From NCBI GenBank assembly GCA_021234155.1, contig JAJEKV010000075.1, positions 1,738,001 through 1,802,000 on the forward strand: DNA of 64,000 nucleotides, in the 5' to 3' direction. Each line of letters starts with the position of its first letter. Positions within the stretch are counted from its first letter, which is position 1. Under the pieces are notes generated by a model. It did not search any database, was not told where the DNA came from, and saw only the letters and a list, made by a program, of their open reading frames with translations. This stretch comes from Isoetes taiwanensis. Its lineage: Eukaryota; Streptophyta; Lycopodiopsida; Isoetales; Isoetaceae. Positions 1 through 51,560 of this stretch are shown piece after piece. Position numbers and translations under genes: made by a program.

Positions 1-3000
1 TCCCCAATTGCATAAACAATGCCTTCCAGAATTTACTAGTAAACTTTGTATCACGATCAGATATAATAATCTTTGGCAACCCATGTAGCCTAAATATCTC
101 TTTGATAAAGAGCGTAGCCGCACTATAAGCCGTCAACTTATCCGAACAAGGAATAAAATGAGCGTGCTTAGTTAAACAATCAACAATTGTCCCAATGACA
201 GTGTTCTTGCGAGAACTGGGAGGAAGACCAACAATAAAATCCATAGTGATCTGTTCCCACTTTGCCTCCGGAATAGGCAAGGATAAAGGAACACCATGAG
301 GTTTTCTTGTTAAGCTTTCTTTATCCGTTGACAAGTAACACAATGCCGAATATGAACCAAAACATCTCTCCGCAATCCAGGCCAAATAAAGTATGGTTCA
401 AGCTTTGCCAAAGTTGCCCCCACGCCCCGATGACCCGCAGTAGGTGCATCATGGACTTCTTTAAGAATAAGTGATCGAAAATTCCGAACAATGCATAGCT
501 TTGGACCTTTATACAAGAACCCATTAACGATCTTATATCCATATGCATTGCTATTTTGAGCTAACAACCAAATATCCTTATAATCGTGGTCGGGTGGCAT
601 ACGATGGCTTCATTTCCTCCAAATGGTTGGATTGTGTTATAGAAAGAGAACAAACCGCATAACGCCTACCACTTAAAGCATCAGCTACAACATTCTCTTT
701 ACCGGACGATAATCTTTTGAGAAATCATATTGTTTGCATAAAAGCAACCCATTTCAACCTGCCTTTAGATAATATTTTCACGTGAAACAATGTGCCTAAT
801 GCTTTGGTGGTCAGTCAAAATATGAACTGTTGACCCTATAAGATAGTGTCGCCACACTTTCAAAGCATGAATGACAGCCAGAAATTCCTTATCATAAACA
901 CTATATCTACTTTTCGTGTCAGAAAACTTCCGACTTGTCATAAGCAATAGGATGACCATCCTGCATCAAAACCGCGCCCAAAGCCACACCACTTGCATCA
1001 ACACATAACAAGAAAGGTAGACCAAACTTTGGCAAACGCAGAACAGGAGGATTAACCATGGCATCCTTTAAAACTTGGAAAGCAAACTGATGATTATGAT
1101 TCCATTGGAAAGGAACATCTTTTCGTAGCAACAAATATAAATCTGAAGCTAAACGAGCAAAATTCTGTACAAACTTCCTATAATAACTGCATAAGCCCAG
1201 AAAAGAACGCAATGCAGCAACTGAAGTAGGTACATGCCAATCCACAATTGCTTGTACCTTACTGGGATCAACTTTAAGACCCTCAGCGCAAACAATATGA
1301 CCCAAATATTCAATTTCCGATTGGAAAAAGATACTTAAGAGTAATAGACTCTTCCCTCAACCGACGGAAAACCTCCCGCAAATGCAAGTAATGATCTTCC
1401 TCGGACTTACTAAAAACCAATATGTCATCAAAGAACACGACAACATAAACGCCATGCACATCTTCAAATATTCGCCCCATTAGCCTCGCAAAAGAAGCTG
1501 GCGCATTTGTAAGTCCAAATGGCATGACCAAAAACTCATAATGTCCAAAGGTTGTCCTAAACGCAGTCTTATGAACATCTTCAGGCGCAACCTTAAGTTG
1601 TCAATACCCTGACTTAAGATCAAGATGGCTAAAAACTGTGGCACCTTGGAGTTGATCAAACAAATCATCCGCCCTTGGTATAGGAAATCGATTCTTTATG
1701 GTTATCTTATTCAAAGCGCGATAATCTATACACATGCGCCAGGAATTATCTTTTTTCTTAACCAACAAGACAGGAGCACCAAAAGGTGAAGAACTATGGA
1801 TCAATCCAGCTTGAAGTAACTCATCAAGCTGGCGCCTAATCTCAACTTGTTGGCCATGCATTCTCCGATAAGGAGCTTGATTAGGAGGTTCTTTCCCAGG
1901 AAGAAGATCAATCCTGTGGTCCTCCAAACGTTGGGGTGGCAAAGTTTGTGGAATTTCATTTGAAAAGACATCATCAAAATAATGCAAAAAGATTGTTTGA
2001 CGCTCATTTAATGGGGATACATCTAACTTAGAACGCAAAACCACCAAATACACAAAATGAGTTTTCATTGCCAAACGTTTAAACTGTACAACAGAAACTG
2101 TTGGAATTGGGAAAACAATATCATCCTTCACAAACTTGAAGGTCTTTTTACCCCCTTCCAAGGATAACATAACAATACCTGCTTTCCAATCTATAAGAGG
2201 AATAATAGCCTTATGCCATGGCATGCCGAGAATAATATCCATACCTCCAAGGTCAGAAACCATGAAAGAACGTTTACAGATATATCCCTGCAATTGAAAT
2301 TCAACATCCTTGACCATAAATGAAGAAGGCGGAGGGGCAACATTCAAGAAAGCAGAAGATAATTCTACATCACTTGATAAAGGAATAGAAGTTAATTTTA
2401 GTTCTTTTACCAAGGGAGCAGAAATAAAATCAAACTCACTGCCCGGATCGAATAAGACATGTACTTTTTGATCTTGAATAGTAGCCCAAAATCGTAAGAG
2501 ACTACTATTCTCAACAGAATCCATATTCGATTTTTCCCAGACTGTAGCCACCTTCTTCCCTTTTCCATCTCCGCGAACAGAAGCTACTTTCTTACTTTTA
2601 TCCTCTTTCTTAGTCCCAGACTTAAGAATAGGTGTAGCTTCCTTTCTGTCCCCTTTCTTCTTTTCCAAATAAGTAGGGCATTCATAAAACTTATGGTCAG
2701 TTGAATAACAAACAAAACACTTATTCTCCCTCATCAACCGCTTTTTACGCGCTTGATAAGATTCCTTTGGCTCTTTGGCCCTAACAGGTTCATTATCTGC
2801 AACGTCTGTGTGCGGCCGTTTGAATGGCCCAGACCCGGGAGAAGATCCCATTGATTTATCACGAAAACCACTCGCCTCTTTCATAGAAACTTTGAGGCCA
2901 CGTTGAGCATTAATGGCTTCAGTAAGGGCCAAACCTTCCTCCTCTACTTTCTCTGCCATCTTACAGAGCTCACCAAAAGAAACATTGGCAACTTGCAGGT

Positions 3001-3643
3001 CGAGCTTTGCCCGTACCCAACGATGAACCCCACCCATGAGTTTTTCAGACTTCTCAGTATCATTTTTACTAAGCTGAAGTCCTTTCTTTAAAACTCGTGC
3101 AGCAAAGGCTCTAACAGTTTCCGTGTTTTGTTGGGTCAACTTATTCCATTCAGCGATAAGCCGCTCCCAATTATGACCCAAAAAACGATTTTTGATTTGC
3201 TTTTCAAATTCCGCAAAGGTAACAATAGGTTGATCGACTGGCTGGTTCTTCTGGATATCCAGCCACCAGTCCTTTGCAACCCCATCCAGATGACGCTCAG
3301 CAAAATATAACTGAGTGTCTTCGTCATCTTTAGTCTTAGCAAAATATGAATTCAAATCCCGAAGCCACGCGAAAAGTTCATCCGCATCATTAGTGGCAGC
3401 GGAATACTTTTTGAATTCAATTTTGACGTTGGCACCCGTTTTGATGCCACTACGTGGACGCCCTGCAGCTTGCTGCAACTGCGCCACCTGCGCTTGCAGC
3501 GAATCCAGTTCTTGCAGCTCCGCAATTCAAGCCTCGACAGCTGCAAGTTTTTCTCTCATGAGCGAATTATCATGCTCTAACTCAAAAAGTTTTTCCTTGA
3601 GCTCTTCATCTTCCAAGTTAACATTGGCAGGGGAACCGGCCAT
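1..3643 (-). pseudogene. Ty3/gypsy retrotransposon gag-pol, decayed and cut by the left edge
   Basis: Read on the minus strand from an ATG at 3643, the domains run Gag, zinc knuckle, protease, reverse transcriptase, RNase H, integrase, which is the Ty3/gypsy order. Gag starts with a coiled-coil-like segment. The CCHC knuckle (C-x2-C-x4-H-x4-C) lies near 2685-2730, the protease motif is a variant D-P-G-S near 2445, and the RT active site reads FFDDILVFS near 1420-1445. RNase H covers about 765-1100. The integrase zinc region (H-x-C-x2-C end) is at 310-480 and the integrase core runs off the window at base 1. A TGA interrupts gag near 3529, another lies in RT just after the SGY motif near 1609, and frameshifts follow near 1330, 960 and 600. 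The element is therefore non-functional as written. No 3' LTR is in the window. Confidence 0.93.
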
Positions 3644-3654
3644 CGAAACTTGTT

Positions 3655-3666
3655 GCTCTGATACCA
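3655..3666 (-). other. Retrotransposon primer-binding site (initiator Met tRNA)
   Basis: On the minus strand these 12 bases read TGGTATCAGAGC, the classic primer-binding site complementary to plant initiator tRNA-Met. It lies between the putative 5' LTR end (3673) and the gag ATG (3643), exactly where reverse transcription of a gypsy element would be primed. Confidence 0.9.
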
Positions 3667-3672
3667 CTAAAA

Positions 3673-4623
3673 TGGACTCTTGACGTGGCACGCTATCTCA
3701 CCACCCAACCACGAGCCCTCAGCTATGACACAGCTGCCCCAGAGCTCTCCCCCAAGCTACTATATAGCATGCACGCCCCCTTTGGTCCTTCTTTGGACCA
3801 AAGGCCCTCTTTGGACCCAAAAGCCCTTTTTGGACCAAAAGGCCCTCTTTGGACCAAAGGCCCAAAGACACGTCCTTGGCATATAGCAGCTATGTTTGTC
3901 TTCTAGCTCAATTCCAGTTTATCCTATAGCTCGCCAAGAAACCAGAAGTTCACCCATAGTAATGGGAACAGTATGCGCCTGATAGATTGTAGGAACCCAG
4001 TTCCGATGACATGGTAAACCCAGTTTTCGTATAAGGGGGATGCGCCCTAAGAGGGCAACTTCGGTAGTTTTGCATTGAATCGGATAGAATTAAGAAATTA
4101 CAAGACTTCTCACTAAACTATGCTCTGGAATCTTGAATCTGCCGACATTACAAAAACAAGATGCCAACTTGAAGATAAACAAGAGCTTCTTCTAGCAAAT
4201 CACTGTAGCACTTATTTACTCAAAACTCAAACAAGCAAAGCTTTTATACACCAGGGGACTCTTCCTTTGTCTCCTTGCACATCTTATTCGGTTCACTTAC
4301 AAAGTTGTATTTGTTTCACCTGCACTTTAATCCGGTTTACAAAGCTATATGACCAAAATAACATACATCACAACCTTGATTTTGAACCAAGGCAAATGGC
4401 CTTGAAGTACCCTGTTCCACTTGGCCGCCATAGTCTTCACCATCATCACGCCTGTATCCGCAATCTTCACCCTGTCCACCATAGCCAATGCACTTCACGC
4501 CATCGCCTGTGCACAGGAATAGAAATTGCAAAAAAATAAGGAGACCTTGCCACTGTAGAGAATTTGTGCCCGACCTAATTGTTTTTCAGATTATTGTATT
4601 ATAAATCAGATTATTGTATTACA
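3673..4623 (-). repeat. 5' LTR of the Ty3/gypsy element (outer edge tentative)
   Basis: The LTR must begin just right of the primer-binding site; the first plus-strand TG is at 3673 (CA on the element strand). A minus-strand TATA box, TATAAAAG, lies near 4238-4247 and would start transcription about 30 bp further toward gag. The outer end is not proven because the other LTR is outside the window. A candidate ends in ACA at 4621-4623, giving TGTAATAC as the LTR start on the element strand. Inside, 3781-3870 holds a short minisatellite, and 4587-4622 holds a doubled 'cagattattgtatta'. Confidence 0.6.
3781..3870. repeat. Minisatellite in the gypsy LTR (about 20-bp units)
   Basis: Variants of 'ctttggaccaaaggccct' repeat about four times with small length changes. 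Each unit is itself a partial dyad (ttggacc / ggccca). The block sits between the LTR end and its TATA box, in the transcribed R-U5 part. A diverged version is at about 29637-29715 in copy 2. Confidence 0.8.
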
Positions 4624-5786
4624 AAGGAGCAAGGTATAAATGCTATTCTGCGGCATTTGGCTAAAATTTAGGCTAGGTTTATTTTATGAGGGAAAATTTG
4701 CAAGAAATAAAAAAGTTCAACCACGCATAGATGAGATTCACAAAACAATTTAGTAGATACACGAAAGTACCTACATTTTTTTAAAGTAATTTTCTTACTT
4801 TAGCCAAACTTATGTAGTTCAACGTTTATAAACTTTTCAACTGAATTCCAAATTGGTGGGTTGGCTAATATTTGGATAGTTCTTTTAGAAACTTTAGCGA
4901 ATATATTAAGAATTAGAAGCCTTTCAAAAAGTACTAGGGAAAGTTCCAGTCGAGGAAATTCCACGAGGGAATTTCCTGAGGCGGCATCGTCAGACGAGGC
5001 AACGCCCAAGCGGGGAAGCCACAGTGCTGCCGAGTCTGGCGCGTCGCCGAGGGATATTCCCGAGGGAATATTTTGAGACAGGGAACTTTCCCTTACGTAA
5101 TAAACAGTTAGTCAAATTACGTGCAATACCTTGTTGCCACATATGGTTCCTCTCTCAGCTGTGGCGAGCAACGAATCTATTGCCATCGCCAGAGTTGGCT
5201 CTAGAAAACACAAAGCCTAGCAATAGAAGCTCACAGAGCAAAGCCCCATACCGCGGCACAGGAAGCTTAGATTTAGAGTATTATATGAACTTTTTATTGA
5301 AGCAAAACAGAGATAAAAGTTACTGCCTTGAAACAGGGCAAGAGCTAGGAAAGGAAACACAAAATGCTTTGATTCTAATCGGTTCTATTGGAAACATGGC
5401 TGGAAAAATGGCCCAACGAATTGCTCGCAAGCTCCTTTTAGCGCATTCATGTGACCAAGAATCTCTGTAGCTTATCGCTCGGAAAAAACTGGTAGAATAG
5501 AAGGCAGAAGAATGATGTTGATTCTTGTTCCTGCACTGTAAATTTCACAGATGAATCGTGTTCATCCTTGCTTCCATAGAGCATTTGTAAGCATTTAAGC
5601 AAAACGGGGGGGGAGGAGGAAGGGGGGGGGGCATGAATCTTCCTCTTCAAGGGCGATGGCAAAACCCTAAACGACGATGGCAATGGACTTCTAAACCTGG
5701 GGGAAACCTTGTGGACGCTTGAAACCATGTGGATTCAGATATTAGACTTGCAGAATACAAACGTCGGTGTACAGAATCCTACACCA
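4624..5786. other. Flank between gypsy LTR and MULE, with palindromes and G runs
   Basis: I see no supported gene here. Two imperfect palindromes stand out: GGAAATTCC-(acgag)-GGAATTTCC near 4953-4976, and a related GGATATTCC/GGAATATT pair near 5052-5073, separated by a GC-rich stretch. Poly-G runs interrupted by aggagg occur at 5606-5631. The reading frames at 5024-5470 and 5447-5728 match nothing I recognise and are probably chance. The 3' end of the MULE probably lies in this interval, but I found no terminal inverted repeat. Confidence 0.5.
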
Positions 5787-5867
5787 TTAACTTATCGGCT
5801 CTCGACAACTCTTTCGGTTATGCCCTGCTTTACTGCAACAACTGCAATGAAGAGGACGTTTTTCCTT

Positions 5868-5872
5868 GCCAT
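5868..5872. other. Target-site duplication, left copy (GCCAT)
   Basis: GCCAT here and at 8278-8282 flanks the gag-only LTR element exactly outside its TG and CA ends. Removing the element and one copy brings the two halves of the MULE frame together, which independently confirms both ends. Confidence 0.92.
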
Positions 5873-6589
5873 TGTTAGATTAATAGATAGACAATTTCTT
5901 AGCAAGGATGTAAAGTTCAATACAACTTTCACTCACAGTTGTAGACTAACATTTTTTTTTTCAATAATCAAATAAGTCTCAAACTTCAAGTACAAGAAAA
6001 TCTAGCACCAAGGAAGCCAAGTTGTGGTCACTAATTCTTTGGTGCAATTATGAACTTCACAACCCAATTTCAAGGCAATGATCAATCACTATTGACTATT
6101 AAGTTCAATAGTTACCACCTGGATATAGTCAATAATTATTTTAACCATTGAAATAACACTGTTCATTCAGCATTGACTTAAACACTATTTAACAGTTGAC
6201 CGAGCTCGCATTCACCCATTCCGGCATGCTTCGACCTCAACTTTTCTGTTCACAGTTACCTCGGCACCGTATACAACTGCTTATTCTTCCTATATAGCTT
6301 CAACCGACGGTTTCGGCTAGATCCAAGTACATTAGAATAGTATTTCAATCGGTTGCATATATCCCACATGCCAATAGCAGAAATATGGCCTTTTGGTCGA
6401 CCATTGAATTTGGCATTTTCCTTTTGCTAGAAATAATGTGAATAAGAACCTTTAAATTCAAACCTATTACCCTTAGCAACTTACATGGATCAACCTTCAA
6501 GAATATGCTTGCCTCAACTTTGTGTGCTGCCTCAGCTTCTAAGCCTGCAACTAATTAATGCATATAATATAACCTGATATACCTTCACA
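5873..6589 (-). repeat. 3' LTR of the gag-only element
   Basis: This repeat starts TGTTAGATTAAT and ends CCTTCACA on the plus strand. It differs from the other LTR by scattered substitutions and an about 20-bp indel near 6550. A minus-strand CTATATAG near 6291-6298 is a candidate TATA box, shared with the 5' LTR. The divergence shows the insertion is not recent. Confidence 0.9.
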
Positions 6590-6600
6590 TCCTCCTTCAT
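6590..6600 (-). other. Polypurine tract of the gag-only element
   Basis: The minus strand reads ATGAAGGAGGA directly before the TG of the 3' LTR. This is the expected place and composition for the plus-strand primer of an LTR retrotransposon, and it fixes the element's orientation. Confidence 0.85.
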
Positions 6601-6623
6601 GTTATATTTATATGCATCCTTTT

Positions 6624-7607
6624 CTATTTCAGATAATTAAATTTTCTTTCTGCCACCACATTCAAGCTAGGATTATTCCTTCCTCCTTTGATCTTGCCCT
6701 CAAAATATTTCTTATCTTTTCCTTTATTTCTTTTTGGACTTGGACACTTGTTTGCCATATGACCCTTTCCTTCACAGTTATAACAAACTATTTCTTTGTC
6801 TTGATTAGGACAATTTATCTTCAAATGTCCATAACTGTCACATTTAAAACATGGACCAATCTTCCCTTTATCATAAGATTTCTTACCTTTCTTACCAGCA
6901 TACAAAACTTCTGCCTCATCATCATCAGCATCTTTCCATTGCTCAAACTCAGTACGAATCATTTTGATGGCTTGTTCCTTGGACCTGGCAACATTTCTCA
7001 ACAGAGTAGCAAGTTGTGCATTATGAGATACAGCTCTAGATATAGCTAATAATTGATAATCCTCATTAAGAACAACCCCTGCACCCTCAAGATCAGCAAT
7101 GACGGACTCAAATTTCTCTAAGAATTCTGTAATGTTGTTTAACCTTCTTAGCTGTTTTTCCAACACATCTATTTAAGACGAGGATTTAATCTCATAATTT
7201 TCAACCATATATTTCCACATGTCTGCTGGAGATTTACCTCTTAGTTTCAATTTAATTACAGTACCAACCTTGTTGCTAATTATTGATTGAGCCTCCATAA
7301 TCTTTGTTTTCTCATCTGCACTTGTCCTCAAGGTTGTACCTCCACCAACACTTGCACTAGCATCTCCTCCTGCACTTGGAGATCCTGTCTGTGCATCACC
7401 TGCAACAGAGCTAGCACTGGCACTAGGTCCTCCTGTGCAATCACCACCAGAGCCCTCTATGCCTGCTCCTGCACCAGTTGTATCACATAAATACCACAAA
7501 TTTTCAAATTCCAATACCTCCTTTATGCTTTGTTTCCATAACTGAAAACCACTATTAATAGATAGACAATTCCTTAGCAAGGATGTAAAGTTCAATACAA
7601 CTTTCAC
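6624..7607 (-). pseudogene. Copia-type Gag with two CCHC zinc knuckles
   Basis: The N-terminal part (7607-7173) contains the copia-type segment F-Q-L-W-K-Q-S-I near 7530 and a long low-complexity Gly/Ala/Ser insert at about 7480-7330. A stop follows at 7173, and the frame resumes at 7166 with a helical capsid segment (about 7160-6960). Two nucleic-acid-binding knuckles then appear, CFKCDSYGHLKINC (about 6860-6815) and CYNCEGKGHMANKC (about 6785-6740). The ATG at 7607 and about 18 residues lie inside the 5' LTR, so this start is probably an accident of a deletion that fused LTR to gag. The protein would form a capsid-like particle and bind RNA; enzymes would have to come from another element. 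Confidence 0.88.
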
Positions 7608-8277
7608 TCACAGTTGTAGACTAACATTTTTTTTTTCAAATAAGTCTCAAACTTCAAGTACAAGAAAATCTAGCACCAAGGAAGCCAAGTTGTGGTCACT
7701 AATTCCTTGGTGCAATTATGAACTTCACAACCCAATTTCAAGGCAATGATCAATCACTATTGACTATTAAGTTCAATAGTTACCACCTAGATATAGTCAA
7801 TAATTATTTTAACTATTGAAATAACACTGTTCATTCAGTATTGACTTAAACACTGTTTAACAGTTGACCGAGCTCATATTCACCCATTCCGGCATGCTTC
7901 GACCTCAACTTTTCTGTTCACAGTTACCTCGGCACCGTATACAACTGCTTATTCTTCCTATATAGCTTCAACCGACGGTTTCGGCTAGATCCAAGTACCT
8001 TAGAATAGTATTTCAATCGGTTGCATATATCCCACATGCCAATAGCAGAAATATGGCCTTTTGGTCGACCATTGAATTTGGCATTTTCCTTTTGCTAGAA
8101 ATAATGTGAATAAGAACCTTTAAATTCAAACCTATTACCCTTAGCAACTTACATGGATCAACCTTCAAGAATATGCTTGCCTCAACTTTGTGTGCTTCCT
8201 CAGCTTCTAAGCCTGCATAATCTTATCATGCAACAGTGTTAATTAATGCATATAATATAACCTGATATACCTTCACA
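7554..8277 (-). repeat. 5' LTR of the gag-only element (3' end deleted)
   Basis: This LTR is nearly identical to 5873-6589. On the plus strand it ends CCTTCACA at 8277, followed by the GCCAT duplication. At its inner end the match stops at ATTAATAG (7554); the expected terminal TG side (CTAACA on the element strand) and the primer-binding site are missing, and coding sequence begins at once. Confidence 0.88.
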
Positions 8278-8282
8278 GCCAT
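8278..8282. other. Target-site duplication, right copy (GCCAT)
   Basis: This is the partner of 5868-5872. It abuts the CA end of the 5' LTR inside the codons of the MULE transposase after R-T-E-D. Confidence 0.92.
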
Positions 8283-9915
8283 TATCTTCTGTTCGAATTC
8301 TTCTCTTCCTTGGGCGTCTCGGAGGTCTACGTGTCTTTGGTGGGAGCAATTTCTCATCCCCTTCTTCTTCTTGCCACTGTTCTCTTAGAAGAAGAGGATG
8401 AATAATGTGAGAATATGTGTCACAGTATGCTCTCAATGTATATGCATGAATTGCATATGATTGGATACGATCTTTCTTGAATAAAATAGCCGCAATTACA
8501 TGTGAGCATGGTAATCCACTTACTTGCCACACATTGCAAGAGCAAACTCCTGTTTCCATGTTCACCACGTGACTAGACTTTTGTGACACAATCTCAAACT
8601 CATGATAGGTGGCAGAAATAATCCGATAATGCCTAGCACGTTCATATGCATTCTTGATTTGAAGTTCTGCACTAGCCACAAGCATATATGATCCTGCTTT
8701 TCTTCGGCAGCCTGTAGGTCAACTGGGCTTGTTCTCTACGTTCAAAGAACCATTTCATCAACTTCTGACGTATCAACTCCATCATTGGTAGAACAGGTAA
8801 TTCCCTAGCTTCAAGAATCCATGAATTGACTGATTCTGCAATGTTGGATGTAAGATGGTCATACCGGGATCCCTAAAGTGTGCATTTGACCAATGCATGG
8901 GTTGGGCCGTGTTAAGACGCCAAGTAGCAACTTCTGGTTTCGTAGCCCGCATTTCTGATATGGCAACATCAAAATCTGATATTGTTGATGCATAGACAGC
9001 TTTCCAAGCAATTTTATCAATTCCAAATTCTTGAATTCTTTCCTCATATTTTCAGATAAGTGACTCATACAATAAGCATGAGGAACATCTCCAAAAATAG
9101 TAGAGACACCTTCAATCAATCCCTTTTGCCTGTCAGATAAGAAGGTTATAGTGTTTGTTGCAGCAAGACTATCACGCAAGTTTTGAAGAAACCACAACCA
9201 GTTATTGTCATTTTCAGCAATAACAACACCAAAAGCAATCGAAAGCAATTGCCCAGCTGCATCTATACCTGTAGCGGTCATCAAGATACCCAAATATCTA
9301 TTTTTCAGATGCGTTCCATCCAAACCTATAACTTGCCTGCAATTGGCAAATGCAGAAATGCATGCTGCATATGATATGTACATGCGTGTAAACCTGTGAT
9401 CATCATCATGCTCCACCAAAACTAATTTGCCTAGATTACTGCGCATTATTTCACGGCAATACTTTTTCAATAAGGAATAACTTTCCTCCTGATTTCCGTT
9501 GATCCTCTCTACTGCTAATTCCTTTGCCTGCCATGCTCTCTTGTATGGCACAGTAATACCATCTTCACGCCTCAAATCACCAAGAATTGAAATTGGGCTA
9601 TAAGATTGGTCATCAGAAATCTTTTCCACAAACCGTGTTGCTATCCAATTTGCAGTCGCCTCTTTGTTTCCCAAATGCTTAGTGCCAACACAATTATGAT
9701 GTCCTGATAACTTTTTAATTGCACAACTAGGGCCATTACCTACAAGGGAAGCATGCAACTTCCATAGGCATCCTTGAATTTTGCACTTTACTGTGTACCT
9801 CTTCCTGTCGGATGCAATAATAGGGAGCTCTACCGCAGAGGAAATGCAAACATTCTTGACATGTGAACGAAGATCTTGCATGGAATCAAACTCCAATCCC
9901 ACTTCCAAATCCATA

Positions 9916-10437
9916 CTGCAATATGAAACAAACATTGATATAAACACATTGATTTCGACCTATCATTAAAATGTGATATATCTCCATATCTAATGAAAAT
10001 CAAAGAAGGCAAATCAGCTAAACATGGAACAGAGTGCATGTATGAACTTCTATATGGCAGAATGCCATTCAAAGGCATAAGTCATGAATTAACCCTGTTA
10101 AATGCAAAAGGGATTATGAAGGCTGTGCTTGCCAAAGATTCCAACATTTTGAGAGCTGAAAGAGAATAGAATTATGAAACAAATTGCTTACCTGGGGTCG
10201 AACAAAAGGAAGCTGAATTAGGGGCCCTTCTTCCTTGGTAAAATCCTGAATGTCTGATCTTAATCATGGAAGAAGATGCAATTTCGAAATTGAAAAGGCA
10301 CATTAGAACCTGAATTAGGAGTCTTTTTTCTTGATAAGATCATGAATGCCTTGATCAAAGGCATGGAAGAATAGATAACAGTCATGCAATTTCGAAATTG
10401 AAAAGGGAGATTTTTGTTCCTGTAGAAATAATAATAA
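9916..10437 (-). other. 5' leader region of the MULE, with a doubled about 100-bp block
   Basis: A splice acceptor precedes the transposase ATG. Further upstream, on the minus strand, CCCCAG|gtaagc near 10193 is a good splice donor, so a 5' leader exon probably lies around 10194-10240. A tandem duplication is visible: 'tgaattagg...aatttcgaaattgaaaagg' at about 10212-10300 recurs at about 10311-10407 with changes. No TIR was found before the Helitron begins at 10438. Confidence 0.5.
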
Positions 10438-10621
10438 TCCTATCCTCCTATATAATAAAAAAATAGCATGTCTGTCACGCCCTATCGACGGCCAAGAAAG
10501 CGCCATGTGGCATATCCTGAACCCTCGGATGTCGAAAACGTGTAAGCTTCAAAATTTGTAGGAAGCATTGAGAAGCTTCCTTTCGTTTCACCTTGCAAGT
10601 TCTGGAAGCCTCTTTGACTTC

Positions 10622-10630
10622 GTATAAAAA
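10622..10630 (+). promoter_or_regulatory. TATA box inside the Helitron
   Basis: GTATAAAAAG occurs in a GC-richer context, about 185 bp from the Helitron 5' end. It would start plus-strand transcription near 10655. The same box in copy 2 is degraded. Whether it drives the spliced frame further down is inference. Confidence 0.5.
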
Positions 10631-11206
10631 GGGGCAGGGCGAGTTATGCAAGGTTGCTAAAGTGTGGAACCAAAATTTGCTTCAGAGTGCTGATTCCGGA
10701 ACTTTAAAAACCATATTTTTTCTCTCTCTTTGCTCCCGCAACGAGCAGACACATAGGAGAAGAGTCGGTTTAAAGAGAAGGTTTTTTTTTGAAATGGGTG
10801 CTTTAGGGCGCTTAAGGTATATGTTCGATTTTTTCTGTTGCTTATGCTAGCAGCGTCTGTTCTGTGTCTGTTCTGATATAGATTTATCAGAGCGCCTCTT
10901 GATTTGGGATTGAAGATACGCGGTTGAGCTTGGTCATTTAAATTGAAGCTGTGCTTTATTGAAGATAAATGCAAAACAAAGATACATACTTGGTTTTTGT
11001 CAGAGAGTAGAAATGCTGAAATCTTTCCGAGCTTGCAGTATGAATCTGAATCCTGTTACTGGAAGCATTGACGTAGGTGTCAGACAGATTCCGTTGATAT
11101 TCAAGCAGAAGAGAGGTCACTAAAACTACTGTTTTTGGAATTTTTGTATCATCTGGGTCTTTCGGAAGCATGCCCATTTCTGTATATAGGAATTTTTGGG
11201 TGGTAA

Positions 11207-11274
11207 GGATTCCGGCCTAGAAAATTGGCTGACGCGCGTCCGACGCGCAGAGGCCAATTTTCTGGCCGGAATCC
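11207..11274. repeat. Long perfect-looking hairpin in the Helitron
   Basis: The left arm 11207-11229 (ggattccggcctagaaaattggc) pairs with the right arm 11253-11274 with one extra base, and the loop holds a second dyad, GCGCGTC/GACGCGC. The total stem is about 30 bp and lies in transcribed-looking sequence. In copy 2 the same place is scrambled. Confidence 0.85.
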
Positions 11275-11361
11275 TAACACCCGAACATTCGTGTGACATG
11301 AAATTTGTGGTGGGTCATTTTCTGCACTGTTCACTGTTCATTTTGGCTGGCCGAGCTCCGG

Positions 11362-11638
11362 CTATGGCGCCAGGCCTCTAGGCGTGTTGCATGCACCGAT
11401 TCTTTCCCTTTTCTTACACGGCTTGGCCTGCTCGTTCCTTTGATCTCATTTTCATACACAGCGCCATAGATTTGAAGAGTTTTTGGTGGATCTTGCATTC
11501 CCTATGGCGCCAGGCCTCAAGGCATGTTGCATGTGCCGGTTCTTCCCTCTTACACGACTTGGCCTGCTCGTTCCTTTGATCCCATTTTCATACAGAGCGC
11601 CACAAATTTGGAGAGTTCTTGGTGGATCTTGCACTTCC
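11362..11638 (+). repeat. Tandem duplication, period 140 bp, in the Helitron
   Basis: The unit starting CTATGGCGCCAGGCCTC at 11362 recurs at 11502 with about 90 percent identity by eye. Both units hold the same sequence from the GGCGCC palindrome to 'ggtggatcttgca'. Confidence 0.88.
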
Positions 11639-13190: not shown

Positions 13191-13204
13191 CTAGCTATCT
13201 AAAA

Positions 13205-13680: not shown

Positions 13681-13748
13681 GGCAATTTCTTTTCATATTG
13701 CAAGTACTTCAGACAAGAGGGAGTCTAGAAAAAAACATGTCATGAATA

Positions 13749-29510: not shown

Positions 29511-29513
29511 GTT

Positions 29514-40135: not shown

Positions 40136-40434
40136 TCACCAATCAGGGTTTCAATAAAATGAACTTCAAAATGAGCGACATCTTCGCTTCTATTTCCTCT
40201 TAGTACTTTTATACTCCAAGGCGATTTGACAGGACTCTTAGTAAGCGTAATTTACATTCAATTCGGTGCCGTGTTGACAATGGCGAAACTTCATGCGTCG
40301 GTTTTGACTGGTCAAGTAGATGTTTTTCTAGGCTGTTCCTCGAGTGCCAGTAATGTAAAAAGTAAAAATGTCGGATGACCATGGGAAGATGTACATTTTG
40401 TAATTGCCAGAACTCAACACTTATATTGAGTTGA

Positions 40435-43400
40435 TTAGACGAACATAAACGTCTTACTTTGACGTGCCAACAGTTGCTTAGTCCGTTCGCTGCCAATAAT
40501 GCGCCCAGCTGTGAACAACCGTCTCAATTAATGCAATTATACGTCTAAGAAAGCTTATCAATCATCAAAAGGCACTTTACCTGTAAATTGTCAAATTGCG
40601 AGAATATTACCCGACAGCTTGGGTTGTCTACACCCTCAACATGTTGACCAGCTGGTGATAAACCCCACAATCAAAGAAAGAATAGAATTAATGTCTGAAA
40701 AGAAGGTACAACATGTTGACCAGCTAGTGAAAAGCCCCAGAGACAGTGAGATTTGAATTAATGTCTGAAAAGAAGTTAATCTTACCTCACTATAGAAATG
40801 AGCATGGTCTGGCAGAATAAAATATTAGATCGCGTATACCACGTATCTGCATAAAAATTCCAACTAGATAATCCCAGGCAACATCTTATGAATACAAAAC
40901 AGATAAGATAGAAACCTTATAGCGGTAGTAAGTGCGCTTTCGCTCTGTGTATAACATCATCCTCCGTTCTCCATGGAAGAACCACGCACGAGAGGCGGAA
41001 ATATCACTTTGCTTTGTATAGCTGTAAAAATCGTGATCTCTCAATAATAAGCTCGCTTGGAACAAAACCCATATGAAATACTCACTCTCCGATTGCACAG
41101 AGCGATGCGTTTTTGACTTCAAATAATTGCGCAATCGCACAAAATCAAAATAAGATCGTACAAACAGCATTGTTCCTCCCTGCATTTAATTGCAAGTCTA
41201 ACATGAAAAATAATGCTAAAATCAAGCCCTTCCAGGAGCTACAAGATGGATACTAACCTGAAGTGAATCCTTTATCCTTGGAAATACCTGCAAATAGAAG
41301 AAAAAAAATTAAGTTGCCATTTATGACGTTGGACCCTTACTGTTCATATGGCTAATGTTAATATTATGGTAAGATGAAATAGAAATCAAGATAAAAGCCT
41401 TTAGCCGAAGCACATAAATTATGTTAGGATCTCGTAAACATGCAGTAGGATCTCGTAAACATGCAGCGAATTATATAGTGTGAAAGTAAGCATCATATTT
41501 TAGATTCCTAAATGCTCAAGAATTCCAATCAATTTGTTTGGCATGCCATTACTGTAAACAACACTCTCTTTATTATGTTGCTCCCAATGTTCTTGCCCAA
41601 CATAAGTAAATCTCATTGATACTGAGGATCACGGCATCATGACAATACGCCCACAAAAGCTTTACATCCACAAATACAAACCTGTTTGATGAAAAACTCA
41701 AAGCGAGCATCATCCACGCCAGCGATTGAGCTGCAAACTAGCCGATCATAGACCTGGTAAATATAACATGTTTATCTCAGAATGCATACATTGCATATAA
41801 TTTTCGAGAATATATATGCCGCATTGGATTAAACAGTAGCTTCCCATTCAACAAGAAAATACTGCATCATTGGTGGGTTCTAGACCCCAAGCATTTTTTA
41901 AAGGTGTCCATTAATGATGCTCTTTTCACATGAACTGCTGCAATTACACGGTCAAAAGATGAAGCTGATTACCTGCTGCACTTGAGGAATCACACTTGAC
42001 AGAACGCCAGAATATTCACTAAACAAACGTATCTGTGTTATGTATCTAGCTTAATTAGTGATCGAGAAAAATCACGAAGCTGTAAAAAAGAATGCAACCT
42101 TCCCAGCATGATTTGTGCATGATCGGAGAAACAACGCACTAACTCCTGCATCCATAAGACTTCAATCAATTTCAGTTGAATATTTCAACAGACTAAATAA
42201 ATGACTCTTGTTGTATGAACCGAGACAAGGAGGGAGGAAGCAATTGTCCTCCGTCAGCATTTTACATAACTAAGTTAGATAAAAAAAGACAAACATAATG
42301 CTAGTTAATTACTTTTAGATAGATTCTGATATCAACTTTTGATCCTTTGCTGCCTTTTGAAAAGACTGCTTTTGCCTTTGTATTACAGAACGCCTTATTC
42401 TTTCGGAACCCCGATAACGTCACCCATTTTGGATCAGGGGGCTTCCTTTTCTTTTCTGGACTTTCCTCCACACTATCTTTCTCCTCCAATTCTTACTTAA
42501 CAGTACAGAAAAAAGTTTTCCCTGCTTGCCTAAGGCCTTTAAGATTGGATTTGTCCTCTCATTTTCTTTAAGGATATTCCATTTTTAAGCGAGTTCGTGG
42601 ATGAACAGGGCTACACATTTCTGGTCATAATATCTCACAGGCCGCTACAGAGTTTGTTGAAAGAGGCAGTGACATCTAAACAGAGCAGCTGAAAACTCAG
42701 CTAAGCCCAAGTTACACAAAGGACAGTTCCCTTAACCTCGATTTTCAATTGGTGAGATGACACCCTTGATAACAAAGCCCATCTGAGATATTCAAAAAAA
42801 CGTCCGAGTAACCTCTCCTTTTCATGGACAGCTCCTTGCTAGGACGTGACGATGTATTTGAAACATAATGCAGCTCACGTAGTCTATGCATGTACACCCC
42901 ACTGACAGGCCACTTCGAGCCATAAGGGTTTAGCATAAAGAACATCTACTAAAGACCCATAGGGTCTACGAACCAAGAACATAAAGTATGGAGAATCTTC
43001 AACGAGGGTGAAAGCCTTCAAAACACTAAAACAGTCTAATAAAAAATTAATAAAAAATTGATGACAGATTCCAGCTCACTTTCCCACTGATAGAAGGACC
43101 CTGAACTGCCTCGTTGAGAGTCTTTGCGAGGTCAGTGTCAAGATAACCCAGTCTCATTATAAACCCATGAGCTAAAATGTTTGGAAAGTCCTCATTGTAG
43201 AATTTACTTTTGGAAGACAAGGATTTAGCCAAGCGTTTGATCCATAAGTTGCTACAAATTATATTTATAAGCTAGTTCATCTACTGCCCCATCAGTTTTA
43301 GATTGGATGTTGCCAAGTTATATTGGAATGGAGATATTTTATCCATCGCGAAGCCACAAACATCTTAACTGTTCTTGCAACCACCTCGAGCAGCCACTGC

Positions 43401-46400
43401 TTTTGATGAGACATATAAGCCAGCCAAGAAAGTCTTAGCTGGCCCTGCCCCAAAGTGGCGCAACTTAATCTAAAAAAAACACTACTTGGAAAGCCACTTC
43501 AAACTGTTGAGGGTTTAGCACTAAATTAAGACGTGCAGGGTTGATAAATTCCCATTACCTGGATCAGGATATGCAGAAAGAATAATTGTCTGTCGATAAT
43601 ACTTGAGCATGCCCATTTAAGTACCTGCAGACATTTGCACTCAGGATTTATTAATCCCACAAATATGAATCAATAGTAGAGGGCATCAGATATACATACC
43701 ATTCTCTTACACGCATGAAATCAGTTCTGTGTTGCTTAGAAGGGATGCAATTCAGGTGTTCCATGGCGGTACAAACATGAGACCAATTCTGAATAATGTA
43801 ACCCTCATGATATAATTAATAAGCCCAATATAACAAGAAAACAGAACACTTGAGGGTTCAATACATAGAATATTATACACTTTGAAAGGGTATCAAGAAT
43901 GCACCTGCATCAATATTACGTCTGTATAATCTACCAGCAAAATCTGTAAAATCATAATATTATAAAACCTTCAGACAAACCTCATATTTACAAATGATAC
44001 GCCATAGGCATCAAAAAATTAAATGAAGATGTGTTTTCTTTTTCCTTTTATTTTTTTGAGAAATACAGCTGCTTTTCTAGAGCCTTCTCTCACAAAATAA
44101 ATATAGTAATTCAAAAAACGTATTACCTCAATGGAAGACAGAAAATCCACATCCTTTTCTTTGTCATTTTCAGCTTCTCCAATGCACTATCAAATGTAGC
44201 AACAGGAGTTAGCTAGGAATGACAGCCATTGAATACTTACTGCTTCAATTTCTTAGGCCTTAGTCTACAAGTCAAGTTTAAATAAATCTCTTCAATCTGC
44301 TAGATTCTAAGTAAAGGAATCATCATTTGAATTACTCATGTTAGCAAGCACTGCAATATACATTCCCTTTATTTCAGGTCAATAAAGTCGAACAATCTAA
44401 GAGCAGTTTCGATAGGCCAATACAGCTGGGCAATTTAACTAATGTACCATTTGATGCCAGTCAGCAACTACCCAGCTAACCTACATCACCTGATAGTATG
44501 CATTTACTGAATGCAAGAAAACTTAAGTTAGCCGCTTTGCAATCAGATTCTAAAACCTCATAATGCTGACTTTCACTTTTAAGAAGTGTTCTTTGACTTC
44601 GCTGGTGTTATAAGGAACATGAAATTTCTAGTTTTCACTTTTACTGTTTCAGCTCTAGAATAAGTTTCTACATTATCTGATACATACAGCAGACTCATTA
44701 TCTGCATTTGAAGAAAAGAGGACAGTCCAACCATAGAAACACAACAATCGTCACATACCGTCATGAGCCCAAGCGGTGATGCAACTATTATATCCGAAGA
44801 ATATAGATCATTATAGATCTTGATGCTTTTCCTGCAGCCCTAAGATCCCCACACTTAGTAATGAGTTGACAAGTAAAACAAGGTAAGAAGCCTATAGATA
44901 TAAGCACCTTGTAAGCTTTAGACCAAGACGAAAGTGGTCATCATTGTTCCCACTAAAAAGCAACTTGTAATCTGCAGGTTTCATTGTTTTGGTAGCTTTT
45001 TTACCATCCACTTCATCATTTTCACCTTCCTCCACTCCAAAGTCATCAAAAAACCTTTGTTTGTGATCTACGGTAGCCTGACAGAATCATATCCAATTTA
45101 AGTATTCAAAATATAGACTAAAAATGAACTATGACCAGGTTGGAGATTCTATTAACGTTTTAACATTTAAGTATTCAAAATATAGACTAAAAATGAACTA
45201 TGACCAGGTTGGAGATTCTATTAACGTTTTAACATTTACAAGACAAATTGGTATAAACTTGATATATAGCCAGGGACGAATAAGATGTAGTCCAGAACTT
45301 AAATCAAAATAAGTCAGTCCCTTTGTTTGATGAAATGCTTAAATTCTGCCGTATTCCCTGTTTTGCCTCTTCTGGGACCCTGAAGCAAATGGATCTAGAG
45401 TGTGTTGCCTATGAGAGGGAGTCTCCCATTAGAGGTCCGGGTGAAGTTTCCAATTGAAGCCACTGCTTCTTTTTTGTCACTAACTGCCTACATGGACCAT
45501 ACTTCCAGTTAAATTCCTGCATTAAGTTGTTTGTTGCAGATACACGTTTCTGGTCTGGAAAGGACGTATGAAAACAAAACGATACAGTCTAATGGCAGAA
45601 CTTGCAGGCCCATTCTGAGCAATCAACCCAGGCTTGGCTGCTTGGCCAATCTCAATCTCACGCTGTTGAGAGGAGACTCTAAACGGTTTTCTAGCAGATG
45701 CAATAAAACCAGGGCATTGAATGAAACTATCATTACTAGTATTAAGGTAATGATCCTTGTAAAACTGCAGACCTGTGGAAAACTTTTCTGGAATAAGCCG
45801 TGTAGATCTAGATCATGCCGAATGAGCTTATTACTTTCTTGAAAAGAATGTACCTTTAGTCCTAATGGCTGATTAATACCAAAGGACAAAGGGAAAACGA
45901 ATGCCGACGGTTTTTCCAAATTGCTGAAAAAGTCATATGAAGGGGCAAACTAAACCTACTGTCTATGAAATCTACAGAATACTATTATTCTAGACTAATA
46001 TCATTAAAAACCAAGTAGACATTTCATTCACTAATGTGCCAGTAAAACCTACACATAAAGAACCATCTGGACATTTTTATTTGCTAATGTGCCAGTAGAA
46101 CCTTATCTTTTGCAGCTGTCCAGCAATAGCAGAAAGGCCTTTTGTAGGTAAATCATGATTTCTTATACTGATAATGCAAGATACTACCCAAATTATTTAT
46201 AATTTAAGCAGCATGTAAAAAAGCCAAACTCACCTTCTGAGAAGGAGGAGATAACTCTAACAACCGCTTCACGAACTTAAGTGCAATACTCCTCAGAGGC
46301 AAAAGAACAAGTATCTGTTGCATCCAGAAATCTCAAGAACAATCTAACATGGTACAATAAAAAATCTAACGGTGTGCATTCTTGCCATTGCTTATTCCAA

Positions 46401-48189
46401 AGGTTACTTGCATGTACTTGAAAAGGAAAGACAGAACAAAGTTGCATGTAGTAATGACTTAAGACCTTAGGACGAGTGAATCCTTGGTCACGAGGAATAT
46501 GAGAAACATCTGAAACAGCTGCAGAATTTGGTTGGTTCAACTTTTCATTGTTTTTAGTGATTATATCCCTTGTCTTCAAAACATGGTTTAGCTGCAAAAC
46601 AACTGCATGATGAGTAAAGTCCGATATTTCACACTTGACTAACCAACCTTATAACACATACCAAGTGAAGAATGTATGCATCCATAATTACTTCCTTGGC
46701 GTGTGTCCGTGTGTGTAGAACATCCTGATAGCTGTTGCCTGCTCATAGCATAACCAGCAAGTAAAGTTTTTCAATGCTATGGCAGAAGATGATGTGGGAA
46801 AAAGGTCACAAACGATAGAATGCATTTTTATTATGTTGCAGCAACAACTTGAGAGAAGCAAAAAAAAGGAAGAATAATAGAAGCAGGAAACTTTATTATC
46901 TGCATAAGACTTACATAAAGCAAAAAAAACTGGCATTGTTCTTCAGACATGAAATTGCCCCATTTAGTTGCTGCACGAGCTACATGATCTTCCCAATGCT
47001 TTCTAAGCCGTAGCTTTACTCCATACTTCACAAGCTTTTTCTCCACCTATGAGATATCAATCAGCATAAGAACCCTTTGACAATTAGGGATTGCATCAGG
47101 GATCTTTGGATTCCCTGTAGTGCTGCATACCATACATTATTGTATGAAACAAACAATATCACCTGTGGCAATGGAGAAAGGCTTCCTCCCCAATGAGCAT
47201 TAGCAAATCCTGATGCTGGAAATTTCAATTTAAACTTCACCTTCCCGGATTCCAGTCTTGAAATTTCTTCTTCCGTGACTAAATGGCTAAGATGTGCCTT
47301 GAAAGAGCTGAAAAGTGATAAAAACATGAAGATTATCCAGGGAAATTCATTCATATCAGTTTCTAGAATACTGCAAATGAACATTGCTATATTTTTCCAT
47401 TAAACTGCACATAAATACTACAAGTTTACGTACTCAAAAGAACAATCAGCGGGAGCAGAGGCTGTAGATGCGATTAAGTTCTCACCAATGCCTTGCTCTT
47501 CATCTGACTGTAAGTCAAGTTCTGCATCGGCATCTTCATCTTCCAAGTTGTCTACGCCTACCTGACCTGTAGTAAGAGGCCCTTGTTAATCAAGGAAATG
47601 TACATTGTAAACATGAAAAAAAGAGGATCACCATCTCTGTCAGCATTTTTGTCATTTTCTTCTTCCTGATCATCTTCACTTATCCCAGCAACATCTAAAT
47701 CCTCAGTTTCGCTATTTGGATCACTGCCATTTTCTGCATCCTCCCCGCTTTCTTCACTACCATCCCCATCGTCTTCATCATCACTACAGGGCTGCATTCT
47801 GTGTGCATTATATATCCACAGGACAAAGATAATTAGCTAACTTAACCTACGATATTTGAACTTTGTAGACTCGAAATTATATCACCTTTGGGCATATGCC
47901 TGTGCAAATGCCCCTCCTTTGGATTGCAATGATTGCAAAAGGGCAACATAAGCTGATGCTCCATCTATTTCAACAATTTCTTCTGAACCTCCATCACCAC
48001 GTTCTTCATCGCTTTCGACATCTTTTTGATCTACAGGATAGCGCAGCCAGAAAAACGCGGAACTCGGTAAAATTAAGGACCATGACAAGAGAATGACAAT
48101 GACAACTTACGAGTTTCTGGTGTTTGAGGCTGCCGTTGCTTAAAGCGACGATTCTGCGTACGAGGCAATCTACGCTTTAGTCCGGCCAT
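40435..48189 (-). CDS. UTP25: UTP25, copy 2
   Basis: The exon-intron structure is the same as at 14718-22487, from ATG 48189 to TAA 40435-40437. The three lesions of copy 1 are absent: exon 2 reads through to A-Q-A-Y-A-Q-R, exon 9 keeps FVKRLLELSPP, and exon 11 has SSDIIVASPLG. Other exons are broken instead: two extra A in exon 6 (about 46922-46929), one extra base in exon 15 (near 43602), one missing in exon 20 (near 41112), two missing in exon 22 (near 40815) and one missing in exon 24 (near 40505). Exon 21 has a local substitution (ERKRTYY for ERAHFYY). Most are homopolymer or short indels, so I infer sequence error rather than two decayed genes. Confidence 0.92.
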
Positions 48190-48220
48190 AAGATTGCTCG
48201 GGGTTCAAGCTTCAATTTTC

Positions 48221-48228
48221 TAGGGTTT
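48221..48228 (-). promoter_or_regulatory. Telo-box of UTP25, copy 2
   Basis: AAACCCTA on the minus strand, at the same distance from the ATG as in copy 1. Confidence 0.68.
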
Positions 48229-48291
48229 TGCCCGCGCAGATACAGGACATGGTGGCGATGGGTTTAGGCTGGGTTCACGTGCAACCATGGC

Positions 48292-48545
48292 TGTGTAAAA
48301 AGGCTCGCCCTTTTACACAGACCTGAACACCCTGCTCCTTGGGTTTTTATGTTTAAAACAGTCATAAACGAAGGCTCGTAACACCCTCGGAGCAGGGTGT
48401 TAAGGGAGATAACGTCCTAGCCCTCGAGCGTGAATGGGAATAAAATTTTCAGTATGGCCATGGCCAAAATGTCTCCGCACGCCCGAGCCATTTTGGCCAT
48501 GGCCATATTAATTTTATTCCCATAACGCCCTCTGGCCAGGGCGTT
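48292..48545. repeat. Stacked inverted repeats upstream of UTP25, copy 2
   Basis: The same four dyads as at 22589-22847. The IR3 loop and IR4 spacer differ from copy 1 (gtctccgcacgcccgagcc; ctctggccagggcg), the first place where the otherwise clean block of copy 2 diverges. Confidence 0.82.
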
Positions 48546-48831
48546 ATCTACCCCACGGGGCCTGGGTAAAACAAGGCCCCTCTCCATCGATGCCAATGGT
48601 TGCATGTGAATCCACTTAATTTTTTAGCACTTTTGCATAAACGCCCGTCCAGGGGCTTCCAAAGATTTTGAGACTAGGTATCCACGTTGTAGCCATGTGG
48701 GTATTTTTACCACATGTTTTGACCCTTTGACCACATCTACGGACATGAAAATTAGAGAAAATTCAAGTCAGTTATACTTTTCATTCCATGCATCAGCCAT
48801 AAAAAAGGTGCTCAAAAGGCCAGAGGCATAG

Positions 48832-49023
48832 AGACACAATAACCTGAGACAGTATTTTATGAACTTATACCATAAGTGGGAGCAGAAACGAGAAGCCCAT
48901 GTATTAGTTTTGCTGGACTTCACCAACTACTCAGCAGATAAACTTGATTTGCTGTTGAACATACTTGGAAGAAGAAGAAGAGTTACAGATCTCACAATGC
49001 AAGATCTGATTGATGCTCAGTAA
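48832..49023 (+). CDS. Orphan C-terminal coding exon (intact in this copy)
   Basis: After a gcatag acceptor-like site at 48826-48831 the frame stays open for 63 codons to TAA at 49021-49023. The peptide contains LRQYFMNLYHKWEQKREAH, a hydrophobic VLVLLDF, then NYSADKLDLLLNILGRRRR and ends DLIDAQ. No start codon or upstream exon could be linked. I cannot name the family. It lies head-to-head with UTP25, about 640 bp from its ATG, so a divergent gene partly lost is possible. Confidence 0.45.
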   Translation, partial: RHNNLRQYFMNLYHKWEQKREAHVLVLLDFTNYSADKLDLLLNILGRRRRVTDLTMQDLIDAQ

Positions 49024-50300
49024 ATTAATGATCTCACTACCTTCTCCAAAACTGCTATTACTATATTTCTGATGCATTTTGACAATATTAAAAATCCAGG
49101 ACTATAGTTCCCTGATTTTTCTTTTTACATATGGTGCTGATCTATATTATCCGTATCAAGTATACCTCTGTGGTGTACTATATGATGTAACTTTGAGATA
49201 TGAATACTAAGTTTCACCTTGCCTTAAAAAAAAAAAAAAAAAAAATTAGGGAAGGAGGAGCTCCGACCTATTTTCTCTGGATGATGCATAGCAGTTTAGT
49301 TTGTCCATGGAGGCCGCGTTACATCTTTAGAAGCTACTCGCACTATCCTTTCCTACAAGCGGCGAAGCAAAGGTTAAGATTTGAGTTCCAAAAAATATGC
49401 GAATATAAATGGTCGCTGCAGAGCTGTTGGAATTATGAATACCATAAAAAATCCAGCATCTTCCCTAAATGCTTCTCTTCATATCCTTATGCAAGGTTTG
49501 AAAATTGCAAGCCATTTGACATCTTTAACCTGATAAATTGTTTGTGGTAAGTTTGCAAATTGATGATGAAAAGCAATCTTGTTTGCTCAAAGTGGCAATA
49601 TAGTTAGGTCTTGCTTTGTTATTGATATGCATAGACGCAACAACCCGTGGGACTCCATTACCCGCCTTTTTTTTTTTTTTTTTTTGGGGGGGGGTAATGT
49701 TGTGCATTTTATCTTCACTATTTTTGTATAATGTGTGTAAATCCGTGAAATGTATGTATAAATGGAGAATCATATGGATGTAATTTGATGAAAATGTCAA
49801 AAATGTGCAAATATTATGGAGGAAGCATTTATATTGTATTGAAATGGAATTTATGGACTTGACGGAGTACTAAAGTCCTTATTTTCAATGGTTGATATTT
49901 TGATGATGTGTCGTGAATATAGAGGAGCATGGTAGTTGCAAGAAGTTTAGATGGCCTAGATTTGATGTTGAGATGGCAAAATCTAGTGTTTATGGTAGTT
50001 ATAATTTAGATCTAGGGTTGTGATTTGCCTAGATCTGGTGGCTAGGATCAAGTGCAGTTTTGTATAAGTTAGCCAAAATTCATGTAGAAGAGAGGCCCAA
50101 TTTTGGAAGACGACAAAGTTGAATAATATTACGTTGAAGTATGATATTTTGAGTATGATTATGTGATTCTCTCATGTGCTATTTCAATTTCTCTAATCTC
50201 AAATAAAAATTAATAAATGGTGCAAGAATTTATGATGGTATGAACTATGTTGGTGATGTATGATGCCAGTAGAGTGAGGCTTAGCCTATCTCATATATCC
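49024..50300. other. Non-coding stretch, copy 2
   Basis: This corresponds to 23326-24600 and carries A and T homopolymers of slightly different length near 49227 and 49667. The plus-strand frame 49200-49550 is conserved between copies but unassigned. Confidence 0.35.
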
Positions 50301-51560
50301 TGAGATTTGCTTCAGTTCTTTGGTCTTGACTTTGCCTTGGGTGCGTTGATCAAGCTAACAAAGGATTCGGGTGAGACTGCAATCTGCCCAACCTCAATCA
50401 CCTGGGCAAACTCCTGCACCACGAATGGCAAACTCTCTATGAACGACTTGTGTTTGGATAAGAGATCAACAATGGATCGAATGAATCAGAAATAGCTGGT
50501 AGACTAGTAGGGACTCGGATTGTCGATAGGCTGGTAGAATTCTCATGGACATGTTAGAGCTCATGGCCAGCACGAAAGCTACCTCCAATTCACTTACTTT
50601 CTGGAAGCATTGCTCTCAACTCATCGTGCTCCTCGACACGAGATTGGATGCAATCACGCATTTGGAATTGGATTTCCAGCCAGATGAATTCCCAATTGCT
50701 GATCCAAATCTAACTGATTAAATTGAAACTAAGAAGAATAATGATGATCTAGTTTATACAAGAAAGTAGACCCAAGAGAAAGAATTTAATTGAATTGACT
50801 TAATTTTTATCGTCCGCAAAGACCAATTGGCCTATGGGACCCAAATAAGGAATACACCAAATGTATTGCTGCTACGGTTAAAAACCCCCTGCCTTGAGGG
50901 ATTTTTTAGGGTCCAAACTCTAGAGGCATCAAAATGCATCTCATCATAAAAAAGATGAAGTGTGGAATAAAAGTTGTTTAAGTTAGTGCTGGTCATGGCT
51001 TTTACTCATTGTATCTCTACACACTCAATGGATCTCAAAGATAGCTCGGGGTGTCTCTTCTTAAAGCATCTCCACCATTTTTTTTCCTGGCAGTCCATCC
51101 TTCAAACAAGTCACACGAGTTATGCACGTATCTGCAACTTTTTCCCTTAGCAAATCCAAGGTCACTCCGGGGGTCACTCCTCTGCCCTCATCAGCCATTT
51201 CAAAGCACCATTTACTATCTCCTCTTCCTCCTCCCGTATCAAACCCTTTGAAATTTCTCCAAATTCTCCTCTGTTTGACCATTAAGCCAATTCCTAAGTA
51301 TTGTGACAGGAATGCCAAAATGAGCAGCAACGTTTATGATGGAAAGCATGCCATCATCAACTGCGTCTATTGCCTCATTCATTTGCTTTAGAGTCCATGA
51401 ACCTCTTTCCACGGACCTCACTCTCTTTCCTCCTAATGAGGTGTTAACAGACTGGAAATGAAGCTTCAACATTTTTTCTTTGTTTCTAAGAGGTTTTGGA
51501 ATGGGGAGAATAAGAGCTACAGGAGGAACAATACCTCTTTTTAGTTGCATCTTGCTTGTG
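50300..51560 (-). pseudogene. pogo/Tigger-like transposase remnant with CENP-B type HTH
   Basis: On the minus strand from ATG 51550 the peptide contains ERGSWTLKQMNEAID followed by AAHFGIPVTILRNWL, a pipsqueak/CENP-B-type helix-turn-helix (about 51410-51260). After a frameshift near 51240 a second binding segment of the Tc5/CENP-B type follows (LKDGLPGKK, then KKRHPEL near 51040-51110). Next come YDEMHFDASRVW (about 50955-50920) and weak DDE-like sequence with many stops down to about 50300. The order HTH, HTH, DDE is that of pogo/Tigger transposases. It is decayed and non-functional. The large direct repeat ends inside it near 51210. Confidence 0.72.

Follow-up and report, generated by a model that had tools for sequence, protein, structure and literature searches.

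In the window, meaning the whole 64-kb stretch of Isoetes taiwanensis DNA that was analysed (C1084:1,738,001-1,802,000, in an assembly of 1.66 Gb and 1,110 contigs), a unit of 26 kb stands twice in tandem. We consider, with a probability of about 0.93, that this tandem is a false duplication produced by the assembly and not a real feature of the genome. An earlier sequence-only reading had proposed that a single locus, or two haplotypes, had entered the assembly twice and had been polished unevenly. This proposal is favoured by the degradation of three assembled versions of the unit toward their ends, together with a strand and context fingerprint of the differences.

Geometry of the duplication

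The direct duplication claimed earlier was confirmed. The BLAST self-comparison of the window gave one long direct repeat, 60-25,502 against 25,954-51,214 (26,024 columns, 89.9%, 800 gap openings). When the left flank is included, a unit of about 25.9 kb is seen to stand twice, head to tail, and it starts about 407 bases to the left of the window (C1084:~1,737,593). The stretch 25,500-25,953 had been described as a spacer between the copies. It turned out that sequence lying just left of the window (L008:9,593-9,953) matches 25,500-25,848 at 83%. Therefore, the 452 bases between the BLAST copies are the noisy start of copy 2, there is no spacer, and the copies meet at 25,499/25,500. Inspected by eye in the printed letters, this seam is blunt, with no N and no visible microhomology; N letters are absent from the 64-kb window as a whole. 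As in a false homotype duplication, the sequence is placed twice, adjoining itself, in one scaffold. The parts of the window are as follows.

1..25,499, plus strand: copy 1, which begins about 407 bases left of the window and is good except for its last ~1.2 kb (from the edges and private differences)
24,291..25,499, plus strand: noisy right end of copy 1, which may be the thinly covered end of the left contig (from private differences)
25,499..25,500, no strand: seam, where copy 1 abuts copy 2 (letters by eye)
25,500..40,310, plus strand: noisy start of copy 2, up to ~14.6 kb of the unit and including 25,500-25,953, which may be the thinly covered start of the right contig
40,310..51,211, plus strand: rest of copy 2, near-identical to copy 1 for the most part and superior to it in the last ~1.2 kb
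51,212..64,000, plus strand: right flank, found once each in C1084 and C1060 as far as probed (52,000-53,000)

Transposons and repeats within the unit

Two features inside the unit have counterparts in copy 2.

5,868..8,282, minus strand: 2.4-kb element with a GCCAT target duplication; its terminal repeats measure ~0.7 kb, and it carries a zinc-knuckle frame on the minus strand; in copy 2 the counterpart begins near 31,720
19,400..19,542, no strand: 69-bp tandem repeat of 2.1 copies; its copy 2 counterpart is at 45,096-45,238, and it is also doubled in C1060

The 69-bp duplication is thus present in both copies, as had been noticed earlier. The GCCAT target duplication had also been ascribed to both copies, and this holds in part: GCCAT stands on both flanks of the element in copy 1 (5,873-8,277) and on its left flank in copy 2 (31,720), but the right flank in copy 2 reads GACCAT. 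The window also contains a Ty3-like gag-protease frame with a borderline reverse transcriptase match and a MULE transposase frame.

A retrotransposon lies in the unit at 1,000-3,000. As an outgroup we used the best 4 of its 43 genomic matches, after the window itself. The four relatives differ from copy 1 at 69-77 columns (3.4-3.8%) and from copy 2 at 435-462 columns (20-22%), and the two copies differ from each other at 405 columns over this region. Since the relatives are near copy 1 and far from copy 2, nearly all of the difference between the copies at 1,000-3,000 arose in copy 2.

A third version of the unit on another scaffold

A third version of the unit is found on the minus strand of C1060, where it runs up to a run of N starting at 3,526,354. 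This N run extends to at least 3,580,000 (at least 53.6 kb) and may be a gap or withheld sequence. A probe from the core of the unit (44,500-46,500) gave three near-full-length matches among the 7 listed, namely copy 1, copy 2 and C1060. The same three were the near-full-length matches of a probe from the end of the unit (23,500-25,450; 42 listed). The right-flank probe (52,000-53,000) had two full-length matches among 41 listed, which were the window itself and C1060.

At the place of window positions 58,079-58,095, C1060 carries an insertion of about 5.8 kb (C1060:3,489,901-3,495,696) without a counterpart in C1084. A T run stands at one of its ends, its target duplication is about 17 bp long, and self-comparison revealed no terminal repeats in it. 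It is probably a LINE that is polymorphic between haplotypes, judging by these features. Part of the insertion has many genomic relatives at 89-95%. Given this insertion, C1060 is a probable second haplotype. C1060 also has about 145 bp extra near window positions 16,908-17,053, which match that stretch again and which copies 1 and 2 do not have. Copy 2 lacks 17 bp of the same stretch.

In the clean right flank at 51,215-55,214, C1060 and C1084 differ by 4 substitutions, 6 deleted bases and 2 insertions. At 55,215-57,214, a pocket in an otherwise almost identical flank, the counts are 78 substitutions, 105 deleted bases and 49 insertions; either C1060 or C1084 is noisy there. The two scaffolds also disagree over most of the range 58-73 kb. 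Within it, positions 60,579-61,578 show 43 substitutions and few indels between C1084 and C1060; this resembles real divergence and contrasts with the noise of the surrounding stretches.

A probe at 3.0 Mb of C1084 matches the minus strand of C1060 at 2,378,772-2,381,286 (92%), near the expected place, and is a local repeat with many matches; a probe at 1.0 Mb is a high-copy repeat. Because both are repetitive, they inform only partly on the homology of C1060 and C1084 along their length. Two left-flank probes, both lying in repeats, had no C1060 match among those listed. The end of the window at 62,616-64,000, with C1084 up to 1,808,701, forms a stretch that is repeated about 6 kb further along C1084. 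A spacing of about 6.1 kb between similar stretches is also seen on C1038, C1060 and C1032, which suggests tandem arrays with a 6-kb period.

Private differences along the unit

For each of the three versions we counted the differences in which it stands alone against the other two. Aligning the versions pairwise to copy 1 with minimal edits gave 24,031 three-way positions, and the first 1,881 positions of the unit, which have no C1060 partner, were counted apart. In the three-way comparison, the private differences of copy 2 number 58-166 per kb over 1.6-14.6 kb of the unit. In successive kb over 12.6-16.6 kb this number is 67, 58, 16 and 2. Copy 2 had been described as dense in indels for 13 kb and then almost identical to copy 1, with the switch inside one Helitron; the pattern was found, but the change is graded. 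Between 15.6 and 22.6 kb the odd version is C1060 in 646 cases, copy 2 in 29 (16 of them in a single 17-bp deletion) and copy 1 in 2, and all three versions differ at 3 positions.

In contrast to the earlier claim that only copy 2 is degraded, copy 1 has 95 private differences in the last 912 bases, where copy 2 has 9 and C1060 has 13. Counted in 200-base bins, small private numbers appear in copy 1 from 22.7 kb, and a clear rise begins at about 24.3 kb, with 11-27 private differences in the full bins from 24,291. C1060 is noisy from the edge of its N run to about 23.6 kb. The left part of copy 1 shows 4-23 apparent private differences per kb, and 126 of these 155 are bases absent from both copy 2 and C1060. 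These bases are probably coincident deletions in the two noisy versions.

Each version degrades toward its own end: copies 1 and 2 toward the seam, and C1060 toward the N run. At the seam there are 84 differences in about 800 bases of the end of copy 1 against 142 in 800 bases of the start of copy 2, the two numbers coming from different counting methods. The noise densities of copy 2 and C1060 rise and fall together along the unit (Spearman 0.76, 25 bins). This indicates that the noise depends on local sequence as well as on the distance from the contig end. The consensus quality of the two copies differs, as in a false homotype duplication. In a real tandem the junction should be called as well as its surroundings; the noise, which serves here as a proxy for read support, is high on both sides of the seam.

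Type of the differences

Between 1.9 and 14.6 kb of the unit, copy 1 agrees with C1060 at 11,200 sites, and at these copy 2 has 410 substitutions, 365 insertions and 611 deleted bases. Without a strand bias, T>C and A>G changes are expected to be about equally frequent. In copy 2 their ratio is 101:30 (p=3.5e-10). In the orientation of the window, the C1060 ratio is 13:116 at 1.9-8.0 kb, 7:38 at 8.0-14.6 kb and 12:61 at 15.6-22.6 kb. Since this asymmetry is mirrored and C1060 has the opposite orientation, T>C is again in excess on the own strand of C1060. The noisy end of copy 1 gave 10:1, and the control, copy 1 against the four family relatives, which are pooled and not independent, gave 29:29. 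More balanced numbers are seen for other complementary pairs of copy 2, such as G>A 49 and C>T 58, but not for all of them (G>C 27 and C>G 7).

The T>C changes are concentrated in the contexts CTG, GTT and GTC: 64/477 against 50/3,376 elsewhere in copy 2, and 105/902 against 145/5,505 in C1060. These contexts were picked after the rates had been seen, and tests on them are descriptive. Over all 16 contexts the T>C rates of copy 2 and C1060 are correlated (0.76, p=0.0007). On the opposite strand, the rates in the three contexts are 0.003-0.019 in C1060, while CTG in copy 2 still has 0.108 (against 0.153). The GTT rate in copy 2 is 0.152 against 0.016 on the opposite strand. Since the CTG error in copy 2 is nearly as frequent on the opposite strand, the asymmetry of copy 2 rests largely on GTT.

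We read these differences as a fingerprint of sequencing rather than of mutation. A real tandem would show divergence of the mutational type, strand-symmetric and with substitutions in excess, and the differences found here are of neither kind. Ordinary divergence as their source is ruled out by the spectrum, the asymmetry and the family comparison. In the excerpts of two published reports, nanopore reads are said to have an excess of transitions (PMC8486125), and a bacterial methylation motif is described as a site of basecalling errors (PMC6591954); a strand-specific T>C pattern like the present one is not stated in these excerpts. The noise may be of nanopore origin.

How the tandem may have arisen

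The edges of the unit, the gradients in the three versions and the noise type are observed; from them we infer a history of two contigs and their read coverage. The left contig would have ended in thin read coverage at about 25,499. The right contig, whose start would also have been thinly covered, would have begun in the same locus about 25.9 kb upstream of the left contig's end. Their overlap may have been left unmerged; a probable reason is that excessive noise on one side hindered the alignment. The two contig ends could then have been set end to end, or joined by a gap filler, perhaps with a raw read placed in a small gap. The tandem unit would be the overlap itself, with its left edge at the start of the right contig and its right edge at the end of the left contig, so that microhomology would be unnecessary. 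Each copy would be of lowest quality at the contig end that it contains and would improve with recovering coverage, and the noise would come from single raw reads. Thin coverage at both contig ends would thus make the noise high at the seam. Several observations speak against an artefact: the seam has no N, the noise of copy 2 and that of C1060 vary together along the unit, the CTG error of copy 2 is nearly as frequent on the opposite strand, and noise is also found away from contig ends (55.2-57.2 kb and most of 58-73 kb).

One haplotype or two

Within the probability given above for a false duplication there is the case in which copies 1 and 2 represent both haplotypes of a single locus, left together in one scaffold. 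It seems to us unlikely, though it takes an appreciable minority of that probability. Clean stretches of C1060 and C1084 differ little, and the near-identity of the copies is therefore compatible with two haplotypes; the copies are also separated by the 17-bp deletion in the clean core. But C1060 is the better candidate for the second haplotype, because its ~5.8-kb insertion and its ~145-bp stretch are absent from C1084 where compared. Copies 1 and 2 have 5 private substitutions and the 17-bp deletion in the clean 7-kb core. The small number of substitutions in these 7 kb, and the absence of the ~145-bp C1060 stretch from both copies, incline us by about 3 to 1 to one haplotype assembled twice. 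This is a lean only. With just 4 substitutions between C1060 and C1084 over 4 kb of the clean flank, the core separates the two cases poorly, which weakens the preference.

Real duplications as unlikely alternatives

A real and recent tandem duplication of 25.9 kb is very improbable. Copy 2 and the junction would then have been badly polished, for example through the attraction of reads to copy 1 or through a single raw read across the junction. Such a tandem would be very recent, with nested transposons and a blunt junction masked by its poor consensus, and would be present on at least one haplotype; we give this form, too, only a slight chance. The seam is continuous without N, and the clean cores are near-identical, which would suit a young duplication. 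An excess of T>C is common to both sides of the seam, as from one bridging read; a single raw read over a real junction could also give noise on both sides and so mimic some of what is seen, although the two sides do differ in noise level by the counts given above. The C1060 version breaks off at N within the unit and is compatible there with either a tandem or a single copy. However, reads should span a unique junction at normal depth, and it is not expected to be the place with the poorest calls. Moreover, the noise rises toward the seam in copy 1 and falls away over about 14.6 kb in copy 2, and C1060, a separate contig, degrades likewise toward its own end.

An old real duplication, with decay of copy 2 and a middle part made uniform by gene conversion, would fit the uneven identity along the unit, but it is hardly credible, since indels outnumber substitutions, the substitutions are strand-asymmetric, context-bound and mirrored in C1060, and the odd copy is copy 2 at the left and copy 1 at the right end. 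The odd-one-out counts, spectrum, asymmetry and context rule out gene conversion over an old duplication. The earlier judgement that neither ordinary decay nor gene conversion fits this locus stands; the family comparison also argues against ordinary decay.

Discussion

If the tandem is a false duplication, counts of genes, transposons or segmental duplications in this assembly are inflated by one copy of the locus, and sequencing noise over about 15 kb might pass for decay. Where a third assembled version is available, an odd-one-out gradient toward the seam, together with strand asymmetry of the private substitutions, can distinguish false from real tandems even if reads are not at hand.

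According to the excerpts of Rhie et al. (2021, PMC8081667), a false homotype duplication arises when the same locus is doubled near contig boundaries through an unmerged overlap and scaffolded in tandem, and a differing consensus quality of the copies is its mark. The present case is like those duplications, with the same sequence placed twice in tandem and copies of unequal consensus quality. In the cases described there, a gap lies between the copies and the length is often that of a corrected read, whereas here the seam has no N, a contig boundary is suggested only by the noise to its left and right, and the unit is 25.9 kb long. False duplications were surveyed in three species by Ko et al. 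(2022, PMC9516828), whose excerpts attribute joins to incorrect gap filling. Their classification rests on read depth and k-mers, whereas the present case is known from the assembled sequence alone. It is also like the targets of purge_dups, which, as its excerpted description states, are retained overlaps between primary contigs (PMC7203741): an overlap of contigs would have been kept as duplicated sequence. The majority of the overlaps considered there lie between homologous chromosomes, while here a single haplotype is favoured, and weakly so. The tandem is best placed among assembly artefacts of an already published kind, with its edges corrected here and the degradation of the end of copy 1 added to its description.
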